The translations under genes were made by a program, and so were the position numbers. Below, one piece after another: positions 1-9,706 of a DNA stretch of 37,149 bases (within the stretch, counting starts at the first letter, position 1; the number at the start of each line of letters is the position of its first letter). Under the pieces are notes generated by a model. That model saw nothing but the letters and a program-made list of their open reading frames with translations. It was not told the DNA's origin and made no database searches. Source of the DNA: Syntrophaceae bacterium (GTDB lineage: Bacteria > Desulfobacterota > Syntrophia > Syntrophales > Smithellaceae); NCBI GenBank assembly GCA_016927935.1, contig JAFGLS010000204.1, positions 1 through 37,149 on the forward strand, read 5' to 3'.

Positions 1-10
1 ATATCGGGAT

Positions 11-163
11 TGGATAGTTCGTCCAACAAATTTCAGTGCATTGCGCTTCTGAAATTTGGGACTCACTACGACTTGCAAATTTCAATATACCCTATAGTGC
101 CCCATGGTGCCCTTTAGGGTATTTAGGTTATTTGTTTTTGAAATTTGAGTCTCACAAATAAAT
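11..163 (+). repeat. Structured interspersed repeat, left copy (two stem-loops)
   Basis: Hairpin 1 spans 21-62: GTCC, a two-base bulge, CAAATTTCAG, a 12-base loop, CTGAAATTTG, then GGAC. Hairpin 2 is closed by CAAATTTC (76-83) and GAAATTTG (140-147), with an inner stem ATACCCTA (86-93) and TAGGGTAT (114-121). The 73 bases 11-83 match the reverse complement of 8856-8928 at 58 positions, and 144-163 match the reverse complement of 8816-8835 at 18 of 20. Stem differences between the copies include compensatory pairs. This copy ends just before the ribosome-binding site at 170-175, so it may also form the leader of the binding-protein mRNA. I do not recognise the family. Confidence 0.8.
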
Positions 164-179
164 TTTAATGGAGGTGTGT

Positions 180-1322
180 ATGTCAAAAAATATTTTCAGA
201 ATTATTTTTGTTTTTCTTTTCAGTCTATTAATGGCCGGGGCGGTTTTTGCCGCTCCTGTGGTGAAAATAGGAGCCTTGTTTTCCGTGTCCGGTCCCGCGT
301 CTTTTCTGGGTGAACCGGAACGCAATACAGCGGAAATGATGGTGGCTGAAATCAACAAGGCGGGGGGAATAAAGGGAACTAAACTGGAACTTATCGTCTA
401 TGATACCCAGGGGGATGCGACCAAAGCGGTGCAAGGCGTGAACAAGCTGATTAAGGACGATAAAGTTGTGGCGATTATCGGACCCAGCACGACAGGCGAC
501 AGCATGGCGGTTATTCCCGTGGTTGAAAAGGCCGGGATACCTCTTATTTCCTGCGCGGCAGGAATCAAGATAACCGATCCTGTAAAAAAATGGGTATTCA
601 AGACAGCGCAAAACGATGTTCTCGCTGTTATGAAGATTTACAAACATCTGCAGAAACAGAAAATTTCCAAAGTGGCGATACTCACCGTTTCCGATGCATT
701 CGGTTCTTCCGGCAGAGAACAGCTTAAACTGCAGGCCAAGGAATTCGATGTTAACATAATTTCTGATGAAACTTATGGTCCCAAAGACACGGATATGACC
801 GTTCAATTGACAAAAATACGGGCCAGCGATGCTCAGGCCATTATCTGCTGGGGAACAAATCCGGGACCGGCTATAGTTGCCAGAAACGCCAAACAGTTGG
901 GAATAAAAGTGCCTCTTTATATGAGTCACGGCGTCTCTTCCAAGAAATTCATCGAGCTTGCCGGTGAAGGTGCCGAGGGAGTTATGCTTCCTTCTGGAAA
1001 GGTTATCGTTGCCGATCAGTTGCCTGATTCCGATTCCCAGAAAAAATCCCTCTTAAACTATGTAAATAAATACAAGGAACGATTCAAGGTGGAAGGTGAT
1101 CATTTCGGCGGCCACGCCTATGACGCGGTTATGCTGCTTAAAAAAGCAATGGAAGGGGGAGGCTTTACCCCGGCGGCAATCCGCGACCAGCTCGAAAAGG
1201 TAAAGAAATTTGCCGGTGTCGGTGGTGTTTTTAGCTATGCTCCTGAAGACCATGCGGGCTTGACCAGTGATGCCTTTGTTTTGGTGCAAGTGGAAAAAGG
1301 CGACTGGAAGTTGATTAAATAA
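180..1322 (+). CDS. Branched-chain amino acid-type ABC transporter substrate-binding protein
   Basis: Periplasmic binding protein of the LivJ/LivK (Peripla_BP_6) family, 380 residues, the usual size. The start at 180 is preferred over the in-frame ATG at 168 because GGAGGT at 170-175 sits four bases before it. The N-terminus is a classical signal peptide with likely cleavage after VFA, near residue 24. The mature protein opens with VKIGALFSVSGP and carries the family motif AIIGPSTTG in the first lobe. It captures the solute and delivers it to the LivH/LivM permease encoded next. The family binds branched-chain amino acids but also aromatic acids, amides and urea. The downstream phenylacetate-CoA ligase makes an aromatic or aryl-acid substrate plausible, though this is only inference. 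Family assignment is firm; the substrate is not. Confidence 0.93.
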   Translation: MSKNIFRIIFVFLFSLLMAGAVFAAPVVKIGALFSVSGPASFLGEPERNTAEMMVAEINKAGGIKGTKLELIVYDTQGDATKAVQGVNKLIKDDKVVAIIGPSTTGDSMAVIPVVEKAGIPLISCAAGIKITDPVKKWVFKTAQNDVLAVMKIYKHLQKQKISKVAILTVSDAFGSSGREQLKLQAKEFDVNIISDETYGPKDTDMTVQLTKIRASDAQAIICWGTNPGPAIVARNAKQLGIKVPLYMSHGVSSKKFIELAGEGAEGVMLPSGKVIVADQLPDSDSQKKSLLNYVNKYKERFKVEGDHFGGHAYDAVMLLKKAMEGGGFTPAAIRDQLEKVKKFAGVGGVFSYAPEDHAGLTSDAFVLVQVEKGDWKLIK

Positions 1323-1356
1323 TTACAGGCATACTCAATACGGTCATTTTGAATGG

Positions 1357-1382
1357 GCGGCGCGGCCATGAGTCCGCGCCGC
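1357..1382 (+). promoter_or_regulatory. G+C-rich intercistronic stem-loop between binding protein and livH
   Basis: GCGGCGCGG (1357-1365) pairs perfectly with CCGCGCCGC (1374-1382) across an eight-base loop, 34 bases after the binding-protein stop. No T-tract follows, so a full intrinsic terminator is unlikely. Such hairpins often protect the 3' end of the upstream message, so that the binding protein is made in excess over the membrane subunits. That role is inferred from family precedent. Confidence 0.6.
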
Positions 1383-1416
1383 GTCAATATCTGGAAACCT
1401 CGCTTTCACCTTATAA

Positions 1417-2301
1417 ATGGAAAATTTCCGTCAATTATTTCAATATATTCTGTCCGGTCTTTCTAACGGCGCCATTTACGCTTTGATTGGCTTCGGCTTT
1501 GCTGTAATCTATAACGCCACAAGCATAATCAACTTTGCCCAGGGCGAGTTTGTGATGCTCGGTGGAATGCTGACGATTTTTTTTCTGTCTGTTTTCCAGA
1601 TTCCGCTTGTTCCGGCATTTTTTCTAGCTATTACTGTTTCGACAATTACAGGAATTATTTTCGAACGTTTTGCCATCAGACCGCTTAAGGATGCCAGTCC
1701 GCTGAGTATGATTATTATCACCATCGGTGCAAGTATTTTTATCCGCGGCGTGGCAATGCTCATCTGGGGAAAGGATACGCACGCTCTGCCCGCTTTTTCT
1801 GGAGATAACCCCTTATATATCGCCGGCGCCACCATTCTTCCCCAACATCTCTGGATTCTTGGTGTTACCATTTTGATAATCATCGTGAGCAGGATTTTTT
1901 TTTATTACAGCATTGTGGGCAAGGCAATGCGCGCCTGTTCCTATAATCCGCGGGCGGCGGGGCTTGTCGGCATTAACGTAAAAAATATGATTCTGCTTTC
2001 CTTTGCTCTTAGTTCGGCTATCGGCTCTCTGGCCGGAATTATAATCGCTCCCCTGACGATGACTTCCTATGATGTCGGTGTGATGCTTGGTTTGAAAGGC
2101 TTTTGCGCTGTAATTATCGGCGGAATGAGCAGCGGCATGGGAACTGTTCTGGGTGGTTTTCTGCTTGGTTTGCTGGAGTCTCTGGGTGCGGGCTATATTT
2201 CCGCCAGCTATAAAGACGCCGTCGCTTTTATAATTTTACTGCTGATACTCTTTATCCGTCCTGAAGGATTATTCCGGAAAAAGGAGACGGAAAGATTTTA
2301 A
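1417..2301 (+). CDS. livH: Branched-chain amino acid-type ABC transporter permease LivH
   Basis: Inner-membrane permease of the LivH family, 294 residues, normal length. The sequence is almost continuously hydrophobic with about eight membrane segments. The family signature NGAIYALIGFGFAVIYNATS lies near the N-terminus (residues 17-36), followed by INFAQGEFVMLGG. The C-terminal half has GLKGFCAVIIGGMSSGMG, the coupling region that contacts the ATPases. It pairs with LivM to form the channel. No strong ribosome-binding site precedes the ATG, so expression may depend on readthrough and coupling from the binding-protein gene. The 130-base gap to livM is unusually long for this operon type and holds palindromes described separately. 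Confidence 0.95.
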   Translation: MENFRQLFQYILSGLSNGAIYALIGFGFAVIYNATSIINFAQGEFVMLGGMLTIFFLSVFQIPLVPAFFLAITVSTITGIIFERFAIRPLKDASPLSMIIITIGASIFIRGVAMLIWGKDTHALPAFSGDNPLYIAGATILPQHLWILGVTILIIIVSRIFFYYSIVGKAMRACSYNPRAAGLVGINVKNMILLSFALSSAIGSLAGIIIAPLTMTSYDVGVMLGLKGFCAVIIGGMSSGMGTVLGGFLLGLLESLGAGYISASYKDAVAFIILLLILFIRPEGLFRKKETERF

Positions 2302-2304
2302 ACT

Positions 2305-2401
2305 TTGATTTTAAATCAATGACACTCGATAAAAACAAACGAAGCGTGGTTTTTATCGTAAGTGGAATTGATCCCGCAAAGACGAAGTCTTATGCGGGAT
2401 C
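2305..2401 (+). repeat. Cluster of three palindromes between livH and livM
   Basis: Three inverted repeats sit in the gap between the two permease genes. TTGATTT and AAATCAA flank a single base at 2305-2319. CGATAAAAAC (2327-2336) pairs perfectly with GTTTTTATCG (2349-2358). GATCCCGCA (2370-2378) pairs with TGCGGGATC (2393-2401), extended inward by AAGAC and GTCTT with a bulged A. No T-run follows the last stem. They could be REP-like palindromic units, RNA-processing sites or an attenuator. Confidence 0.7.
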
Positions 2402-2434
2402 TTCGGGTTATTTAATTTAATTCAGGAATTTTTG

Positions 2435-3412
2435 TTGGATATGGTAATGGGGAAAAAGCACCAGATTCTGATTTTTTTTATTTTCGCGGCCATCGCACTT
2501 TTGGTTCCTTTTTTTCTAAAAGGCAGCTATCTTTTAAACGTTCTTATATTTGTCGGAATTAATACCATTCTGGCCGTGGGACTTAATCTGCTTCTTGGGT
2601 ATGCCGGACAAATTTCTCTCGGGCATGCCGCTTTTTTCGGCACGGGCGCTTATATTTCCGGCATAGTCACTTCCAGATTTCCCGTTGATCCGTTTCTGAT
2701 AATGATTCTAGCGGCTTTTTGCGCCGGTGTGCTTGCTTTTGTTATCGGTTTTCCCATATTGAAACTCAAAGGGCATTATCTGGCGATGGCCACGCTTGGC
2801 TTCGGCATAATACTGTATATAATTTTCAACGAAACCGTTGATTGGACGGGGGGGCCATCCGGTTTGTCGGGAATTCCCAATCTATGTATCGGCTCAATGG
2901 TTTTTGACAATGACTGGAATAATTATTATCTCGTTTGGGTGTTCACCTTGGCCGTAATGCTGCTTTCCATTAATTTATGTGACTCCAGAATCGGCAGGGC
3001 ACTGAGGGCCATTCACGATTCGGAGGCAGCTGCCCGCGTCATGGGTGTCAATGCCCGATTTCTTAAGGTTCAGATTTTTACAATTTCTGCCGTTATTTCT
3101 GCTATTGCCGGAAGTCTTTATGCCCATATAGTAACTTTTATTGCTCCTTCTTCCTTCGGCTTTAATTTTTCGGTGGAACTGCTCACAATGATTGTTATCG
3201 GGGGCCTGGGTAGTATTTACGGTTCATTTCTAGGGGCGGTAATCCTGACAATGCTGCCGGAATTTTTGAGGGTTTTCCGTGACTTCGATATTGTTATTTA
3301 TGGACTGATGCTTATTTTGATGACCATGTTCATGCCCGGCGGTTTGATCGGCGGCATTAAAGCAGCGGCAGGATTCATCTCCGCTCAATTGACGAAGAGA
3401 AAGGGTAAATAA
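2435..3412 (+). CDS. livM: Branched-chain amino acid-type ABC transporter permease LivM
   Basis: Second permease subunit, about 325 residues, LivM family. It shows the signature LNLLLGYAGQISLGHAAFFG early in the protein, then LATLGFG-type and GGPSGLSGIP motifs, and IGRALRAIHDSEAAARVMGV as the cytoplasmic loop that contacts the ATPases. About ten hydrophobic segments are visible. The start is uncertain: AGGA at 2424-2427 fits the TTG codons at 2432 or 2435, while ATG codons at 2441 and 2447 are also in frame. The stop shares one base with the livG start (TAATG), so translation of the two is probably coupled. Confidence 0.94.
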   Translation: MDMVMGKKHQILIFFIFAAIALLVPFFLKGSYLLNVLIFVGINTILAVGLNLLLGYAGQISLGHAAFFGTGAYISGIVTSRFPVDPFLIMILAAFCAGVLAFVIGFPILKLKGHYLAMATLGFGIILYIIFNETVDWTGGPSGLSGIPNLCIGSMVFDNDWNNYYLVWVFTLAVMLLSINLCDSRIGRALRAIHDSEAAARVMGVNARFLKVQIFTISAVISAIAGSLYAHIVTFIAPSSFGFNFSVELLTMIVIGGLGSIYGSFLGAVILTMLPEFLRVFRDFDIVIYGLMLILMTMFMPGGLIGGIKAAAGFISAQLTKRKGK

Positions 3413-4164
3413 TGCTCAGGTTTGAAAGCATAACCAAGGTTTTTGGCGGATTGACTGCGCTGGATAATGTTTCTTTCTTGGCGGAAAACGGATCAATAAC
3501 GGGGATTATCGGTCCCAACGGTGCGGGCAAGACCACTCTATTTAATATTGTCACGGGTTTTTATGCACAGGACAAAGGAGAAGTTTATCTCGACGGAAAA
3601 AACATTTCTTTTTTAAATACGGAAGAACTTGCCGGATTGGGTCTGGTGCGCACTTTTCAGAATGTGGAACTTTTTCGGCAAATGACGGTTTTGGAAAATG
3701 TCATGGTCGGTCTGTACACCAGAAGTAGAAGCGGCATTTTTTCCTGTGCTTTTAAAATGCCCCGCCAAATCAAGGAAGAAAAATATATCCGGGAAAAAAG
3801 CATGGAGTGGCTTAAAGTTGCAGGACTCGCTGATTCGGCCGGTTCTTCAGCCGGTAGTTTGCCTTTCGGCAAAGGAAGACTTCTGGAAATTATCCGAGCC
3901 CTTGCTGTTGAACCGAAGATTATATTAATGGATGAACCGGCAGCAGGACTCAACAGCAGGGAAACTGCCGAGCTGGCATCGCTTATCCGCAGGATAAATC
4001 AATCCGGCGTAACGATAGTACTTGTGGAGCATGATATGGATTTGGTTATGGACATTTGTGATTCCATTGTTGTTTTAAATCTGGGAAAGAAGCTGACCCG
4101 GGGCACGCCGCGGGAAATTCAGGAAAATCAGCAGGTAATTTCCGCATATCTGGGCGAGGAATAA
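3412..4164 (+). CDS. livG: Branched-chain amino acid-type ABC transporter ATP-binding protein LivG
   Basis: ATPase subunit of the Liv importer, 250 residues. Walker A is GPNGAGKTT at residues 34-42, the Q-loop lies in RTFQN near residue 80, and Walker B with the catalytic Glu is LMDEP (D174, E175). The C-terminal extension with LGKKLTRGTPREI and a final AYLGEE is typical of LivG. The ABC signature is atypical: around residues 150-158 it reads LPFGKGRLLEI, where LivG proteins usually have LPYGQQRRLEI, so the conserved Gln is replaced by Lys-Gly. It starts inside the livM stop codon and is followed by livF after 16 bases. ATP hydrolysis by LivG and LivF drives uptake through LivH and LivM. Confidence 0.95.
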   Translation: MLRFESITKVFGGLTALDNVSFLAENGSITGIIGPNGAGKTTLFNIVTGFYAQDKGEVYLDGKNISFLNTEELAGLGLVRTFQNVELFRQMTVLENVMVGLYTRSRSGIFSCAFKMPRQIKEEKYIREKSMEWLKVAGLADSAGSSAGSLPFGKGRLLEIIRALAVEPKIILMDEPAAGLNSRETAELASLIRRINQSGVTIVLVEHDMDLVMDICDSIVVLNLGKKLTRGTPREIQENQQVISAYLGEE

Positions 4165-4180
4165 TGACGGCTTATAGAAT

Positions 4181-4924
4181 ATGTTAAAAATAATAAACAT
4201 AAACACATATTATGGTCAGGCGCAGGCACTGAAAAATGTTTCTCTTCATTTAACTCGAGGTGAAATAGTAACTCTTCTCGGTGCCAATGGGGCCGGCAAG
4301 ACAACGCTTCTAAATTCTTTATCCGGTGTAATTCCTCCCCGAAGCGGTCAGATTATTTTTGATAGCGTTCCAATAAATAATCTTGCGATACACCAGATCG
4401 TCCGCATGGGTATTTCTCATGTTCCGGAAGGTAGGCAGGTATTCAAGCCCGTTTCGGTGGAAGACAATCTGGAATTGGGCGCTTACCTGCACCATAAATT
4501 TCTGGGCGATAGGAATAAAGTAAAAAAAAATAAAGAGATGGTTTATGACCTATTTCCAATTCTTCGGGACAGGAAAAAACAATTGGCCGGAACGCTGTCG
4601 GGAGGAGAGCAGCAGATGCTCGCCATAGGCCGGGCTCTTATGACCGGACCTAAGCTAATACTTCTGGACGAGCCTTCTATGGGGCTCGCTCCCATGGTAG
4701 CTCAGGAAATTTTCCGCGTTATTGGAGATCTGTCCAAAAAAAAGAAAACAACAGTTTTGCTGGTAGAGCAAAACGCACGGGCAGCCCTGAAACTGGCCAG
4801 CCGCGGCTATGTACTGGAAACCGGACGCATGATTCTGGAAGGTACTGCTGCCGAATTGCTGGATAATAAAGATGTTCAGAGAGCTTATCTGGGCAAGGAT
4901 AAAAAGGAAATATGGGAAAGATAA
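4181..4924 (+). CDS. livF: Branched-chain amino acid-type ABC transporter ATP-binding protein LivF
   Basis: Second ATPase of the importer, 247 residues. It has Walker A GANGAGKTT (34-42), a canonical signature LSGGEQQ beginning at residue 139, and Walker B LILLDEPSMGLAP with D163 and E164. VPEGRQVF, in the helical region, is diagnostic of LivF. The protein ends close after AYLGKDKKE, as usual for the family. It is the last transporter gene. The gap to paaK is 57 bases and holds a short translatable frame. Confidence 0.95.
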   Translation: MLKIININTYYGQAQALKNVSLHLTRGEIVTLLGANGAGKTTLLNSLSGVIPPRSGQIIFDSVPINNLAIHQIVRMGISHVPEGRQVFKPVSVEDNLELGAYLHHKFLGDRNKVKKNKEMVYDLFPILRDRKKQLAGTLSGGEQQMLAIGRALMTGPKLILLDEPSMGLAPMVAQEIFRVIGDLSKKKKTTVLLVEQNARAALKLASRGYVLETGRMILEGTAAELLDNKDVQRAYLGKDKKEIWER

Positions 4925-4949
4925 TTTCTATTCTAAAGAGGATATATAA

Positions 4950-4985
4950 ATGAATTTTTTCCATAACTGTGGAGGTTTTTTATGA
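4950..4985 (+). CDS. Possible 11-codon leader peptide overlapping paaK
   Basis: A frame of 11 codons (MNFFHNCGGFL) starts at an ATG seven bases after AAGAGGA (4936-4942), a good ribosome-binding site. Its stop TGA overlaps the paaK ATG as ATGA. The paaK ribosome-binding site GGAGG lies within its two Gly codons. This geometry allows translational coupling. It has no recognisable homology and could be chance in a short leader, so confidence is low. Confidence 0.3.
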   Translation: MNFFHNCGGFL

Positions 4986-6283
4986 ATATCTGGGATAAAA
5001 CTCATGAGTGCATGTCACGGGATGAACTTGAGCAGCTGCAATTGGAAAGACTGCAAGTCGTGATAAACAGAGTGTACAAGAATGTTACTCACTACCGTAA
5101 AATATTTAATGATTTAGGCATAATTGCGGAAGATATATGTTCTTTGTCTGATTTGACCAAATTGCCTTTCACCACAAAGGATGACTTGTGTGTAAATTAT
5201 CCTTACGGAATGTTTGCCGTGCCGCTCAGAGAAATTGTGCGCATTCATTCCTCTTCCGGCACCACCAGCAAGCCGATAGTGATGGGCTACACGAAAAACG
5301 ACATAAAAATATGGTCTAATCTGACGGCGCGTTTTATGACTGCCGCTGGTGTTACTCATGATGATGTGGTGCAGATAACTTTTCGTTATGGTCTTTTTAC
5401 AGGAGCGTTTGGCGTGCATTATGGTGCTGAGACAATCGGAGCTTCAGTCATTCCGATGGGCACCGGCAACACGGATAAGCAAATTATGATTATGCAGGAT
5501 TATAAAACTACTGCGCTGGTCAGCACGTTAAGTTATGCATTGGTCATAGCAGACCGACTCGAACAGCTGGAAATTGATCCCCAGTCGCTTTCATTGAAAA
5601 CAGGACTGTTTGGCGGAGAACTATGGTCGGAAAAGATGTGTGAAGAAATTGAAAACAGGCTTTTGTTGAAAGCAACCGACAATTATGTTGTTTCTGAAGT
5701 TATGGGCCCTGGTGTTGCCGGCGAATGTTTGTGCAAAAGAGGCATGCACATTAATGAAGACTCTTTTATACCTGAAATAATAAATCCTGAAACAGGAGCA
5801 CTATTGCCTGCCGGCAGCGAGGGTGAACTGGTGCTCACGACGTTGACCAGAGAGGCTTTTCCGATGATTCGTTACCGTACCGGAGATATTTCCAGCCTTG
5901 ATTATTCTCTTTGTGAATGCGGACGAACCCTTGTGCGCATGAAAAAAGTAGCACGGCGTTCAGACGATATGCTTATTGTCAAAGGAGTGAATGTTTTTCC
6001 TTCCCAGGTTGAGGATGCAATCTTCAGTGTGGCGCAGGGAGAAACACCTTACCAGATTGTCGTGGAAAGAAAAGGTGCGATGGATAATGTGGAAGTTGTT
6101 ATTGAAGTCACAGATAAAATATTTTCTCTGGAACTGCAGAAGCAAAGGTCTTTTCTGGAAGCGATTAAAAAACGCATTAGTTCAGTTACGGGAATTAATG
6201 CTGACGTCAGGCTGGTGGAGGCAAAAAGTCTTTTGCGGCAGAAGGGAAAAATTTCACGGGTGCTGGATAAAAGAAAATTATAA
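4982..6283 (+). CDS. paaK: Phenylacetate-CoA ligase (AMP-forming)
   Basis: Cytoplasmic adenylate-forming ligase of the PaaK family, 433 residues, full length. It activates phenylacetate or a related aryl acid with ATP and CoA. The P-loop-like motif HSSSGTTSKP lies at residues 89-98 (S90 to T95 bind ATP phosphates), and YRTGD is at 298-302. The hinge and C-terminal domain follow with RRSDDMLIVKGVNVFPSQVE near residues 325-343, the PaaK form of the mobile C-terminal domain. GGAGG precedes the ATG by six bases. It follows the Liv importer on the same strand, which suggests uptake followed by CoA activation. Real substrates could include indoleacetate or other aryl acids; the family call is secure. 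Confidence 0.93.
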   Translation: MNIWDKTHECMSRDELEQLQLERLQVVINRVYKNVTHYRKIFNDLGIIAEDICSLSDLTKLPFTTKDDLCVNYPYGMFAVPLREIVRIHSSSGTTSKPIVMGYTKNDIKIWSNLTARFMTAAGVTHDDVVQITFRYGLFTGAFGVHYGAETIGASVIPMGTGNTDKQIMIMQDYKTTALVSTLSYALVIADRLEQLEIDPQSLSLKTGLFGGELWSEKMCEEIENRLLLKATDNYVVSEVMGPGVAGECLCKRGMHINEDSFIPEIINPETGALLPAGSEGELVLTTLTREAFPMIRYRTGDISSLDYSLCECGRTLVRMKKVARRSDDMLIVKGVNVFPSQVEDAIFSVAQGETPYQIVVERKGAMDNVEVVIEVTDKIFSLELQKQRSFLEAIKKRISSVTGINADVRLVEAKSLLRQKGKISRVLDKRKL

Positions 6284-6286
6284 CAA

Positions 6287-7045
6287 CTATTCTTTTTTCT
6301 TTTTTAGCTTTTTAAGCGTTTCAATTATCTTATCGCGATAGTAGTATACCGGGATGTAAATCGCTATACCTAAAAAAAGGATAACGGCTAAGCGGATGTA
6401 TTGCCCCTTGATGGCAAAAGCTCCGGTGAGAGAAAGCAAAATCGTGCCAAAGATACGTCCGGCAGTTGAAATTACGATGAATGTTCCCGTTGGAATGCGG
6501 CTTACGCCCATAATATAACATAAATAATCCTTGGGAAAGCCCGGAATGAGAAAGAGTAAAAAAGAAACCATAAGACCCTTGTGTTCCATAAAGTGTTCAA
6601 ATTTTTCATATACTTCTTTTCTGACTACGTTTTCCAGAAGCGGTTCGCCGAAAAATCTTGCCAGCATGAAAGCAATCCATGAACCAATTGTGAGACCAAT
6701 TGTGGAATAGACGGTTCCGAAGAAAGGACCGTAAAGACTACCGCCGATAAATCCGGTGATTTCCCCGGGAATGGGAGAAACCACAACCTGTATTATCTGG
6801 AGAGTAATGAAAATCAACTGATTAAATGGGTATGACTTAATGAAAGTCATCAGTTTATGCCTGTCCTTGAATAACAAATACAAGTCGTAATGAATAAATA
6901 TAAAGAAAGATAAAGTGATCAGAAGGACTAATAAAATAATTCTGAAAGCCAGGATTTTGTTCATACCGAAAATAGTTAAAACTATAACCAGTACGAAAAT
7001 GAAAACCATCACAGGCACAAGTACTTCAAACATAATGATATCCAC
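6287..7045 (-). CDS. TVP38/TMEM64 family inner-membrane protein
   Basis: Polytopic membrane protein of the DedA/VTT (SNARE-associated) superfamily, 252 residues. N-terminal hydrophobic segments precede the family core: VVSPIPGEITGFIGG, then GTVYSTIGLTIGSWIAF and ARFFG, and later FLLFLIPGFPKDYLCYIMG. The C-terminus is a run of Lys and Glu. Relatives act in lipid scrambling or envelope homeostasis, but the role of this member is unknown. The start is either GTG at 7045 or ATG at 7033; neither has a strong ribosome-binding site. It is convergent with paaK, with only three bases between the stops, and appears to have its own promoter. Confidence 0.85.
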   Translation of the reverse strand: MDIIMFEVLVPVMVFIFVLVIVLTIFGMNKILAFRIILLVLLITLSFFIFIHYDLYLLFKDRHKLMTFIKSYPFNQLIFITLQIIQVVVSPIPGEITGFIGGSLYGPFFGTVYSTIGLTIGSWIAFMLARFFGEPLLENVVRKEVYEKFEHFMEHKGLMVSFLLFLIPGFPKDYLCYIMGVSRIPTGTFIVISTAGRIFGTILLSLTGAFAIKGQYIRLAVILFLGIAIYIPVYYYRDKIIETLKKLKKKKE

Positions 7046-7063
7046 GGCTTATTTTTTAACGCT

Positions 7064-7090
7064 CTTATAATATTATAGTTGTTTCGTCAA
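7064..7090 (-). promoter_or_regulatory. Sigma-70-like promoter for the TVP38 gene
   Basis: On the minus strand TTGACG (7085-7090) and TATAAG (7064-7069) are separated by 15 bases, just upstream of the TVP38-family start. Each box matches five of six consensus positions; the spacer is short. Confidence 0.4.
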
Positions 7091-7171
7091 ACTGATTGTC
7101 CGCTTTTTACTGCCAGAATGATACGCTGATACTTTTATAGAGTCGTATTATTAACAATCAAACCAAAATTG

Positions 7172-7199
7172 TTGACTTTAAAAAAACTCTATGTAAAAA
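7172..7199 (+). promoter_or_regulatory. Candidate promoter for the thiolase gene
   Basis: TTGACT (7172-7177) and TAAAAA (7194-7199) are 16 bases apart, about 80 bases before the thiolase start. An inverted repeat ACAAT N9 ATTGT overlaps the -35 box and could be an operator. The -10 box is weak. Confidence 0.35.
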
Positions 7200-7277
7200 G
7201 CAGACGGAAACTTGTTCGACAATTTTCTTTTACCAATGAATTTTCATCAGAAATAAGGCAGAAGGGAGAATATCTTT

Positions 7278-8642
7278 ATGTCAAAAATACCGCAAAAACT
7301 GGAAAGAAAAAAATCAGAAGTTTATAAAGATGCGCCTATCGCCAAGTTTGGCGAAAGAAAGCCGGATTTTTCCACGATGGGCAGAAAAATAAAAAATCAG
7401 TATAAAAAATTCCGGGAAGTGGTTTGTGTGGAAGCCTGCCGGACACCATACGGCCGTTCGGGTGGTGCGCTGAAAGATTTTTCCGCGATGGAACTGGGAG
7501 CACTGGCGATTAAAGAAGTTATCCGCCGTACCGCGGGCAGGGTGAAGCCGGAGGATGTTGATTATATTTTTATGGGACAGGTTGTTCCCGCAGGCTGTGG
7601 TCAGATTCCCGGTCGTCAGGCAGCTATTCTGGCGGGAGTGCCGGATTATGTCCCTTCCATTACCATCAATAAAGTCTGTTCATCCGGCATTAAGACAGTA
7701 GATCTGGCATTGCAGATGATTTTGCTTGGACGCGCCGAAATATGCATTGCCGGTGGCCAGGAAAGTATGAGCAACTGTCCGTTTGTTCTGCCGGATATGC
7801 GTTGGGGCACAAAAATGGCTCTGCCCAGTGGCCGCGTTGTGGATTCAATGGTTTATGACGGTTTGTGGGATGCATTTTATAACCGCCACATGGCGATTCA
7901 CGGTTCGGAAGTTGCTGATGAGTTTGGTTTCAGCAAGGAAGAACAGGATGAATGGGCGCTGAATTCTCAGATGAACGCCGTTAAAGCGATGAATGAAGGA
8001 AAACTTGATAACGAGATTTTTCCTGTAGAAGTTAAACAGGGCAAAAAGATTATCATTATGGACAAGGATGAAGGACCGCGGCCGGATACTACACTTGAAG
8101 GATTGGCAAAACTTCCGCCTGTCTTTGGTCATGTCAGTACCGTTACCGGCAAACCGGGAAGCGTAACAGCCGGAAACGCACCCGGTGTCAATGACGGCGG
8201 TGATGTTTGTCTGATCATGAGCCGCGAAAAAGCCGATGAACTGGGACTGAAGCCGATTTTTACGATTATTGACTACGCCGAAGTGTCGCAGCCCACTAAA
8301 GACATTGCGACAGTACCGGGGCTGGCCATCAAAAAAGTTCTGGAGCAAAACGATATGACACTCAATCAGATGGAACTGATTGAAGTCAATGAAGCTTTTG
8401 CCGCGGTAGCGCTGGTGAGCTGTCGCTCGATTCTGGGAATGTCCAAGGAGGAGATGTTTAAAAAGGTTAATGTCAACGGCAGCGCGGTCGCTTACGGCCA
8501 TCCCATCGGAGCGACTGGCGCGCGGATTTTGATGACGCTGGGGTATGAACTGAAACGCCGCGGCGGCGGCTGGGGAGTTTGCGGCATTTGCTCCGGACAT
8601 GCGCAGGGAGACGCGATGTTGATCAGGGTAGATAAAAGTTAA
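7278..8642 (+). CDS. Acetyl-CoA C-acetyltransferase (thiolase family)
   Basis: Thiolase of 454 residues, catalysing condensation or thiolytic cleavage between acetyl-CoA and an acyl- or acetoacetyl-CoA. The nucleophile is C134 in NKVCSSG. NEAFAAV starts at N371, H408 lies in GHPIGATGAR, and the second catalytic Cys is C438. Two features are unusual. The first 45 residues are a basic, hydrophilic extension before the normal thiolase start (REVVCVEACRTPYG). The C-terminal motif reads CSGHAQG where most thiolases have CIGGGQG or similar. GGGAGA at 7264-7269 is a good ribosome-binding site. It stands alone, 230 bases from its divergent neighbour, and could serve beta-oxidation of the products activated by PaaK or a separate acetoacetyl-CoA step. 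Confidence 0.93.
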   Translation: MSKIPQKLERKKSEVYKDAPIAKFGERKPDFSTMGRKIKNQYKKFREVVCVEACRTPYGRSGGALKDFSAMELGALAIKEVIRRTAGRVKPEDVDYIFMGQVVPAGCGQIPGRQAAILAGVPDYVPSITINKVCSSGIKTVDLALQMILLGRAEICIAGGQESMSNCPFVLPDMRWGTKMALPSGRVVDSMVYDGLWDAFYNRHMAIHGSEVADEFGFSKEEQDEWALNSQMNAVKAMNEGKLDNEIFPVEVKQGKKIIIMDKDEGPRPDTTLEGLAKLPPVFGHVSTVTGKPGSVTAGNAPGVNDGGDVCLIMSREKADELGLKPIFTIIDYAEVSQPTKDIATVPGLAIKKVLEQNDMTLNQMELIEVNEAFAAVALVSCRSILGMSKEEMFKKVNVNGSAVAYGHPIGATGARILMTLGYELKRRGGGWGVCGICSGHAQGDAMLIRVDKS

Positions 8643-8731
8643 TCTTGTCATTTCCGACCTGATCGTGAATCCAGTTCTTTTAAAAAGCTTTATTATCCCA
8701 AAATCCTTTTTGCTGACTGAAATCGTTTTGG

Positions 8732-8821
8732 ATAAATCTAAGGCTTGCTTCAGGCGATTACAAAACTCACCTTCGGCTCAAACATATGTAGTCGCTGATC
8801 TTCAGCTTCGCCAAGATTTAT
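8732..8821 (+). other. Long imperfect hairpin in the intergenic region after the thiolase gene
   Basis: ATAAATCT (8732-8739) pairs with AGATTTAT (8814-8821), and inside it GCGATTACA (8754-8762) pairs with TGTAGTCGC (8787-8795) with one G-T. No T-tract follows. It directly abuts the right copy of the structured repeat within the 417-base gap 8643-9059. I see no gene in the rest of that gap: short open frames there lack ribosome-binding sites and recognisable protein features. Confidence 0.5.
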
Positions 8822-8928
8822 ATGTGAGACTCCAATTGAGCAGGTGCACTGTGAAGAAATTGGTAAGTTGTAATGAGACCCAAACTTCAGAAGCTACGCG
8901 CGCTGAAGTTTGTTGGTCGAATTATCCA
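8816..8928 (-). repeat. Structured interspersed repeat, right copy (inverted)
   Basis: This is the inverted partner of 11-163. Hairpin 1 spans 8877-8918: GACC, CAAACTTCAG, a 12-base loop, CTGAAGTTTG, TT, GGTC. Hairpin 2 is closed by CCAATT (8832-8837) and AATTGG (8858-8863). Compared with the left copy, three stem pairs change on both sides: T-A to A-T in the outer stem, T-A to C-G in the long stem, and A-T to C-G in hairpin 2. The apex of hairpin 2 is shorter here (20 versus 56 bases). Confidence 0.8.
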
Positions 8929-9059
8929 TTAGTTAGTCTTTAACTATTGGAAACTATCCCCCAAAGCGAAAGGTATGAAAGCAGATTTATTAATTTCATA
9001 CCCGTGATTCGCCAAGAGCCAAAACGTTTCTGGCATAGTCGCTTTTTATATGCTCCCGT

Positions 9060-9362
9060 TCAATTAGGTATTTTCATCAATCTTTCACTACGCCAGATGC
9101 GGACGATTTTTATTTTATTTTTGTCGAGGCGGTAAACAATCCGGAATGGCGCAAATATTATTTCCCGCAGGTTTTCGATGTTAAATTCCGGCACAATGCG
9201 TCCGCTTTCGGGGAAAGCAACGAGTCTTTCGACCTGAGAAATAATCTCACTGATTAATCTATCACCAACATCAGGTGTTTGTTGATCAATATACCAGGCG
9301 CGGATATCTTCCAGATCATTGAATGCCGATAAAGCAAAAGAAATGAATCTTTTCTTTGGCAT
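9060..9362 (-). CDS. Type II toxin, ParE/RelE superfamily
   Basis: Small basic protein of 100 residues with the ParE/RelE fold signature: an N-terminal strand with FALSAFNDLEDIRAWY, a central VERLVAFPESGRIVPEF, then LREIIFAPFRIVYRLDKNKIKIVRIWRSER. The FPESGR and YRI-type core followed by a terminal strand is typical of ParE-like toxins, which poison gyrase, while RelE relatives cleave mRNA on the ribosome. The motif set favours ParE, but the target cannot be decided from sequence. It starts two bases after the antitoxin stop, so the pair forms one operon with coupled translation. Confidence 0.88.
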   Translation of the reverse strand: MPKKRFISFALSAFNDLEDIRAWYIDQQTPDVGDRLISEIISQVERLVAFPESGRIVPEFNIENLREIIFAPFRIVYRLDKNKIKIVRIWRSERLMKIPN

Positions 9363-9364
9363 GA

Positions 9365-9643
9365 TTATTTACTCATTCCCAGCCGTTTTTTAACTTCAGC
9401 CAAACTTATTTCCCGGTCTTCTTCAATATCCATCAATCCTTGAACAACATCGCGCAGGAAGGCCTGCTCTTCAGCTTTTTCTTCATAATCTTTTACCGAT
9501 TCAACAACGGCAATACCTCTGCCTCGACTGGTTAGAAGAACCGGTCTGCGGGTTTTATCAACCTGGTTTAGAACTTTGCCCGGATTGATTTTTAGATCGG
9601 TAATTGGAATAATATCTTCCGAATATTTTATATTGGATCGCAT
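9365..9643 (-). CDS. Type II antitoxin, Phd/YefM family
   Basis: Antitoxin of 92 residues. An ideal AAGGAGG (complement of 9650-9656) lies six bases before the ATG at 9643, so longer upstream frames are not used. The N-terminal domain has the Phd/YefM pattern ITDLKINPGKVLNQVDKTRR followed by PVLLTSRGRGIAVVES, the DNA-binding and dimerising fold. The acidic C-terminus (YEEKAEEQAFLRDVVQGLMD) would wrap the toxin. It is expected to repress its own promoter, and an imperfect palindrome around the -10 region (9669-9702) is a likely operator. It neutralises the ParE-like product of the next gene. Confidence 0.9.
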   Translation of the reverse strand: MRSNIKYSEDIIPITDLKINPGKVLNQVDKTRRPVLLTSRGRGIAVVESVKDYEEKAEEQAFLRDVVQGLMDIEEDREISLAEVKKRLGMSK

Positions 9644-9677
9644 AAAAATCCTCCTTAAAGATCTATTAGCAGGTTTA

Positions 9678-9706
9678 AAGATAGCACTTGTTAAACGACC
9701 TGTCAA
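9678..9706 (-). promoter_or_regulatory. Promoter and likely operator of the toxin-antitoxin operon
   Basis: On the minus strand a perfect TTGACA (9701-9706) is 17 bases from TATCTT (9678-9683), about 35 bases upstream of the antitoxin start. The half-sites CAGGTTTAA and TTAAACGACCTG on the plus strand flank the -10 box as an imperfect inverted repeat, consistent with autoregulation by the antitoxin. Confidence 0.65.

Follow-up and report, generated by a model that had tools for sequence, protein, structure and literature searches.

The repeat copies and the genes between them

The stretch of DNA analysed here, referred to as the window (37,149 nucleotides, contig JAFGLS010000204.1 of assembly GCA_016927935.1 from a Syntrophaceae bacterium), begins with a gene block whose Pfam matches indicate a periplasmic binding protein, two permeases, two ATPases, a protein with an AMP-binding C-terminal domain, a VTT-domain protein and a thiolase. 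The block lies between two copies, in inverted orientation, of a structured repeat, which is the subject of this report. Aligned without gaps, positions 11–83 and the reverse complement of 8816–8928 share 58 of 73 bases, exactly the number given in a preceding sequence-only reading; outside 1–200 and 8701–9020, the best match of the left 73-mer in the window reaches 37 of 73. The stem changes which that reading had described as affecting both arms are all present (GTCC/GGAC to GACC/GGTC, AAATTTCAG/CTGAAATTT to AAACTTCAG/CTGAAGTTT and CAAATT/AATTTG to CCAATT/AATTGG), and a fourth paired change absent from it, TAGT/ACTA to TAAT/ATTA, is located outside a TC/TC internal loop. Both elements are real, but the extents first assigned to them (11–163 and 8816–8928) required revision, as the right element continues to about 9009 and the left one is cut by the contig start. 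The left copy stops just 5′ of GGAGG (170–174), as had been supposed, and the following ATG at position 180 is the start of the periplasmic binding protein gene according to Pfam. The features of the repeat in the window, with hairpin unit B, the second hairpin B′ and a nested mini-palindrome as building blocks and with bit scores from the covariance model R1 of unit B (see below), are as follows.

1–163, plus strand: left composite copy, consisting of hairpin B and hairpin B′ with nested mini-palindrome, cut by the contig start (sequence and fold)
12–68, plus strand: hairpin unit B of the left copy, TAGT-TC-GTCC-AA-CAAATTTCAG / 12-nt loop / CTGAAATTTG-GGAC-TC-ACTA (R1 83.6 bits; pair counts)
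70–155, plus strand: second hairpin B′ of the left copy, GACT-TG-CAAATTTCA ... TGAAATTTG-AGTC, its loop filled by the mini-palindrome (fold; partial R1 match at 76–147, 18.6 bits)
92–130, plus strand: outer mini-palindrome in the loop of left B′, arms 92–101 and 122–130, one base shorter than the usual form
102–121, plus strand: inner, nested mini-palindrome, CCATGGTGCCCTTTAGGGTA
2317–2373, minus strand: third, diverged B-type copy between the two permease open reading frames (ORFs), with another main stem, CGATAAAAAC, and unchanged layout (R1 43.3 bits, E 3.9e-9; structural scan)
8817–9009, minus strand: right composite copy, ends approximate
8871–8927, minus strand: hairpin unit B of the right copy (R1 81.0 bits)
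8823–8870, minus strand: hairpin B′ of the right copy, CCAATT/AATTGG, without mini-palindrome (read from the sequence)
8970–9005, minus strand: distal hairpin GGTATGAAA/TTTCATACC of the right copy (fold)
8697–8821, plus strand: another dispersed repeat (about 125 bp) adjoining the right copy

The composite element is a mosaic of hairpins. B′ resembles B in design and follows it, other hairpins precede B, and the right copy finishes with the distal hairpin. Folded as single-stranded DNA, both copies are more stable than all 200 dinucleotide shuffles (z –3.4 for the left and –5.1 for the right), while the left copy folded as RNA gives z –2.9 and is equalled by one of 200 shuffles; the region of the third copy (2310–2400) reaches z –7.6. 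The adjoining repeat at 8697–8821 has further copies in genomes of the genus, mostly at 79–90% identity, and genes for a ParE-like toxin and a Phd/YefM-like antitoxin are found just past the right copy (9060–9706, minus strand).

Architecture and covariation of unit B

The consensus of unit B reads TAAT-TC-GACC-NN-10-bp stem-12-nt loop-GGTC-TC-ATTA and corresponds to the layout X4-TC-Y4-NN-Z10-loop12-Z10′-Y4′-TC-X4′, in which the arms change together and the unpaired TC/TC remains constant. The model R1 of this 57-nt hairpin is based on an alignment of 41 of the 44 distinct units, in which 95.1% of the 820 cells pair, compared to 86.8% in shuffles; two-sided changes occur in 13 of 20 pairs (7.1 in shuffles) and in 75 cells (20.7 in shuffles), values which none of 500 shuffles attained, and the observed level of further pair types was attained by two of 500. 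A scan for the layout without any specified base, covering 40 stretches (767 kb from two genomes) and the window, returned 14 hits, all of which possess the unpaired TC/TC and the 12-nt loop, and the control on one strand of 20 shuffled stretches returned none. One of the main stems recovered in this way is quite different from the others and is that of the third copy in the window, CGATAAAAAC.

Copy number and distribution

With R1 at E≤0.1, the genome of origin (G000) contains at least 152 matches in 3.38 Mb, a lower bound, since scoring was applied to the best 150 of 2183 first-look candidates and the true number may be higher; BLAST of the left and right copies against the same genome gave 47 and 46 matches. 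Including this genome, matches are present in 49 of 99 genomes, namely in all 17 of the genus, in 25 of 34 from other genera of the family (42 of 51 for the whole family) and in seven of 48 elsewhere in the order, and the copy number varies widely among species. A 23-base pattern was found in 31 stretches of a named sequence collection, from which the genome of origin may be absent, and these are assigned to Smithella, Syntrophaceae or Deltaproteobacteria; the genus carrying the repeat is apparently Smithella. No match was obtained for the left copy in plasmid and phage collections, nor for one exact 24-mer in viral contigs. The assignment to a structured, dispersed unit of REP or MITE type with further copies, one of the options of the sequence-only reading, is thus borne out by the copy number and by the covariation.

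The comparison of B units by length used 98 of 118 matches (24 of 28, 9 of 11 and 65 of 79), low-scoring or truncated ones being left out, and one of the underlying searches covered 50 of the 51 loci L070–L120. Among 39 copies in unbiased stretches, seven overlap crude ORFs, so that the family qualifies as a high-copy, mostly extragenic imperfect palindrome in the sense of REPs and REPINs; two have no flanking gene and 30 could be classified by spacer. Of these, 19 lie between tandem genes (12 in the same and seven in the opposite sense), nine between divergent and two between convergent genes, with 70, 18 and 12% of the spacer base pairs available in the respective classes. The repeats have no fixed place or orientation relative to genes, which favours upkeep at the DNA level over selection on an RNA.

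A mini-palindrome of about 20 bp in hairpin loops

Several hairpins unrelated to one another carry the mini-palindrome (CTATAGTGACCTTTAGGTTA type; about 20 bp) in their loops, and it also occurs in its own loop. Its exact core is found 385 times in the 17 genomes of the genus, 48 times in 34 other genomes of the family and once in 48 of the order; the pattern read backward is not found in the genus and has six matches in all 99 genomes. Eight B units of 77 nt correspond to the 57-nt unit plus 20 nt after unit position 30, the insert being followed by TTCG in seven and by TACG in one, and six other long B units (75 to 114 nt) carry different or multiple inserts. An orthologous pair of filled and empty sites was also found: where G003 has GAGGGGAGGG, the two halves are separated in G010 by exactly 20 bp, GAGGG[20]GAGGG. 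The unit therefore resembles a small dispersed repeat (SDR) of 20–30 bp, dispersed and with filled and empty sites, on the basis of the 57- and 77-nt units and of this one orthologous site.

Insert sites were compiled from 80 stretches of seven genomes, taken mostly in listing order with some near contig ends skipped, which provided 138 sites or 116 after removal of near-duplicates. The insert is preceded by C in 110 of the 138 and followed by TT in 89, both (C^TT) applying to 88. Unit positions 9 and 18 form A-T in 64 and C-G in 51 of the 116 sites and are mismatched in one, even though the search pattern allowed any mix. By two simple rules, 30 or 35 of the 116 copies reside within the loop of another copy; three nesting levels are reached at L098 and L239, and many nests mix the A-T and C-G variants. 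The hosts comprise B, B′, a CTCGG hairpin, a CCCTCCC hairpin, a GTCATTCC-type repeat and others. Pairing of the flanks across the insert has a median of –9.7 kcal/mol, compared to –4.5 kcal/mol at 1248 intergenic C^TT control sites.

Three further observations concern the mini-palindrome. In four genomes it stands at a constant place (CAGCAGA^ / ^TGA) in a further repeat family (L259, L261, L284, L286, L313 and L319). Near the triple-nested palindrome of L098, an nhaA-I RNA motif was detected at 442–500 (40.5 bits). At L326 (G027:C102:13100-13430, minus strand), a mini-palindrome is followed by seven tandem copies of CAGGTTAT that have no matching left arms; nesting beyond three levels, for which this locus had been considered, was rejected as only the right arm is repeated, and the array looks like a slippage-like expansion of one arm.

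Comparison with known systems

The nearest bacterial kinds are the REPINs and the CGTC-tagged REPs, judged, as are all published systems compared here, from excerpts of the cited sources (PMC3116915, PMC3733652). REPs and REPINs are described as short, mainly extragenic palindromes in high copy number, often clustered (PMC3116915), and the Smithella repeats share these traits. They differ in that no consistent link to Y1 transposases of the REP-associated type (RAYTs) was found, in having no conserved GTAG end, and by their three-part stem with unpaired TC/TC and loops holding another repeat. The edge columns read TAAT in most units; in 12 of 41 units, those with a G-C pair at columns 6/55, the opposite strand reads TAGTGAG, with GTAG where the next base is C, which is a feature of a subset. 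The CGTC-tagged REPs are said, in the excerpted text, to have no dedicated transposase; like the present family, they are hairpin repeats that occur dispersed and have no transposase gene beside them (PMC3733652). However, the CGNC of the Smithella units is not a conserved tag: columns 10–13 pair with 48–51 and vary, column 11 being T in 14 of 41.

For the mini-palindrome, the cyanobacterial SDR5, a small dispersed repeat said to be inserted precisely within HIP1, offers a parallel by description only, as a very small mobile repeat with precise insertion at a short target (PMC4390886). The target of the mini-palindrome, in contrast, is often a hairpin loop (C^TT at 88 of 138 sites), and the unit nests in itself. 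For the organelles of Volvox carteri, the insertion of palindromes into each other has been described, with TTTA/TAAA loops and an average length of 50 nt (PMC2670323); the plastid motif TCCCCTTTAGGGA resembles the Smithella GTGCCCTTTAGGGTA (same source), and the Smithella nests comprise two and three levels, with a TTTA or TTCA loop that was built into the search pattern. The Volvox palindromes belong to algal organelles; the likeness would be one of working rather than of descent, and it is treated here as convergence. Mitochondrial double-hairpin elements and hairpin-forming elements of sponges are also mobile-looking hairpin repeats, but they are mitochondrial, and the excerpts describe no 20-bp loop-nesting unit (PMC2800124, PMC7218506). 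A literature search, mostly outside subscription journals, retrieved no fitting report of palindromic repeats in Smithella or of palindromes inserted in loops.

Mobility, upkeep of the arms and alternative explanations

We consider the copies in the window to be probably members of a modular, non-autonomous family of DNA palindromes that spreads as DNA hairpins and whose arms are kept complementary at the DNA level. Downstream of the thiolase gene, G010 has a member of about 105 bp, composed of B′ and the distal hairpin and located within another dispersed repeat; in G003 and G002 the sequence at this locus continues through a short junction. In the proposed scenario the repeats would spread as single-stranded or cruciform DNA hairpins and reach the tips of other hairpins by being copied into them or joined there, driven by a candidate enzyme supplied in trans or by replication and repair, and the complementarity of the arms might be kept by template switching between them or by recognition of the DNA hairpin rather than by selection on a transcript. 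Template switching in replication can create and maintain complementary hairpin arms, according to an excerpt of PMC8794818, and because it can generate compensating arms, covariation alone is no proof of RNA function. More tentatively, the mini-hairpin of about 20 bp may itself be mobile and may target hairpin loops as such, including its own and up to three levels deep, without a Y1 transposase and by a reaction at extruded hairpin tips, a strategy which might have arisen independently in the organelles of Volvox.

Several observations weigh against this interpretation. The 14 hits of the layout scan represent only seven distinct main stems, mostly of one kind akin to CAAATTTCA. Related copies enter the counts as if they were independent, the large element has approximate ends, and the B′ hairpin of the right copy is missing from the minimum-energy fold. 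At the G010 locus the junction differs by a few bases from that of G003 and G002 and alignment beyond it is poor, so that no target duplication can be claimed for the large element, and none is visible. Flank pairing of –10 kcal/mol or better was obtained at only 54 of 116 insert sites (10.6% of controls), with just one of 11 in GTCATTCC-type hosts and 12 of 29 in other hosts, and the contrast weakens when flanks are shuffled among sites (a stem of at least six in 56 of 116 compared to 27.8%). The 20-mer by itself has a weak fold (–0.4 kcal/mol as DNA), a G-T pair is kept on one of its strands, its first four bases are variable and its left edge is assumed. The remaining adverse points are the G-T counts of the inner loop, given below.

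A structured RNA selected for its fold, as a leader, riboregulator or processing signal, would account for the strong covariation, for the left copy ending just before a ribosome-binding site and for the G-T pair retained in the mini-palindrome, and many REPs are described, in an excerpt of PMC3733652, with frequent GT pairing and plausible transcription. If the transcript were selected, G-U intermediates should exceed A-C. In a pooled test of 112 distinct units (the 57-nt units and the eight 77-nt units minus their 20-nt insert, with 14 rows of other lengths excluded), the 2016 cells of the 18 main stem pairs contained 1889 Watson-Crick pairs, 34 G-T, 38 A-C and 55 others (G-T versus A-C, P 0.72). 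The two inner-loop pairs were counted separately: pair 27/35 shows 40 G-T versus 6 A-C and pair 28/34 shows 5 versus 12, which puts G-T ahead (79 versus 56) over all 20 pairs. It is uncertain whether these two pairs form at all, but the excess at 27/35 counts in favour of an RNA, and the inner-loop count slightly lowers our confidence in upkeep at the DNA level. Against an RNA speak the balance of G-T and A-C in the main stems, the variable gene context and orientation, the widely differing copy numbers between species and the Rfam scans, which gave nothing over the element in the window, no match at 20 loci with the short insert and, at 20 other loci, only a tRNA and an nhaA-I RNA, both beside elements. 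The sequence-only reading had proposed that selection acts on the fold and not on the sequence, and had listed an RNA among the candidates; the covariation on which it relied is strong, whereas selection for an RNA fold is unsupported and we regard such an RNA as very unlikely.

Even less credible is a boundary pair of a mobile or recombining block of 8.7 kb, the same reading having listed a recombination boundary among its options. The inverted copies on both sides would suit such a block, but with at least 152 matches in 3.38 Mb flanking copies are expected by density, a third copy (2317–2373) lies within the block, and the thiolase end of the block is conserved in relatives both with and without an adjoining repeat. 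Moreover, the assembly has 239 contigs, of which the window is C23, and it is an assembly break that places the left copy at base 1; copies are also found at the ends of contigs C95, C161, C73, C136, C16 and others. Copies that specifically flank a mobile block, as in a composite transposon, were accordingly not recognized.

A classical REP/REPIN system, in which RAYTs mobilise the hairpins, appears unlikely to us, although G000 has nine Y1_Tnp matches, eight of them above the family cut-off, and family sequence with two strong matches occurs near three Y1 loci. Hairpins with conserved unpaired bases are suitable substrates of Y1 enzymes and insertion without target duplication is in line with IS200/IS605. 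However, R1 matches amount to only five, in three of 37 Y1_Tnp loci, no RAYT gene flanked by the same repeat was found among them, and, of the G000 transposase loci read in the correct frame, L062, L063 and L066 have other inverted repeats beside the gene. In a search of 26 genomes, 16 of them from the genus, Y1_Tnp matches at E≤1e-5 were lacking in G003, G007, G011 and G012 among these 16; at E≤1 G003 and G012 gave one each, below the cut-off, and the repeat-rich G007 (98% complete; 56 scored B matches) and G011 (55) still none. The conserved GTAG end is missing as well. A lost or an unrelated enzyme is possible. The inverted repeats around the Y1 gene of L062 read ggggtcaagtc...gacttgacccc.

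The nests of mini-palindromes might alternatively result from template switching or slippage inside hairpins, with no transposition involved, and be carried along by their host repeats. The slippage-like sevenfold array of L326 and the ability of template switching to keep arms complementary, reported in the excerpt cited above, would agree with this. Nevertheless, we rate such an origin as rather improbable in view of the presence of one and the same unit in several unrelated hairpins, the orthologous locus where another species lacks it, and the combination of A-T and C-G variants in many nests.

Implications

Textbook covariation can come from dispersed DNA palindromes, and the comparison of G-T with A-C failures provides a cheap first test against RNA selection in such cases. 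Repeats of this kind also break assemblies, as several contigs of this genome begin or finish inside copies. The part deserving specialist attention is the loop-nesting 20-bp unit. With its filled and empty sites it offers a bacterial system for asking by what route units of about 20 bp move and what makes hairpin loops receptive to them, which is also a question for SDRs and for organelle palindromes.

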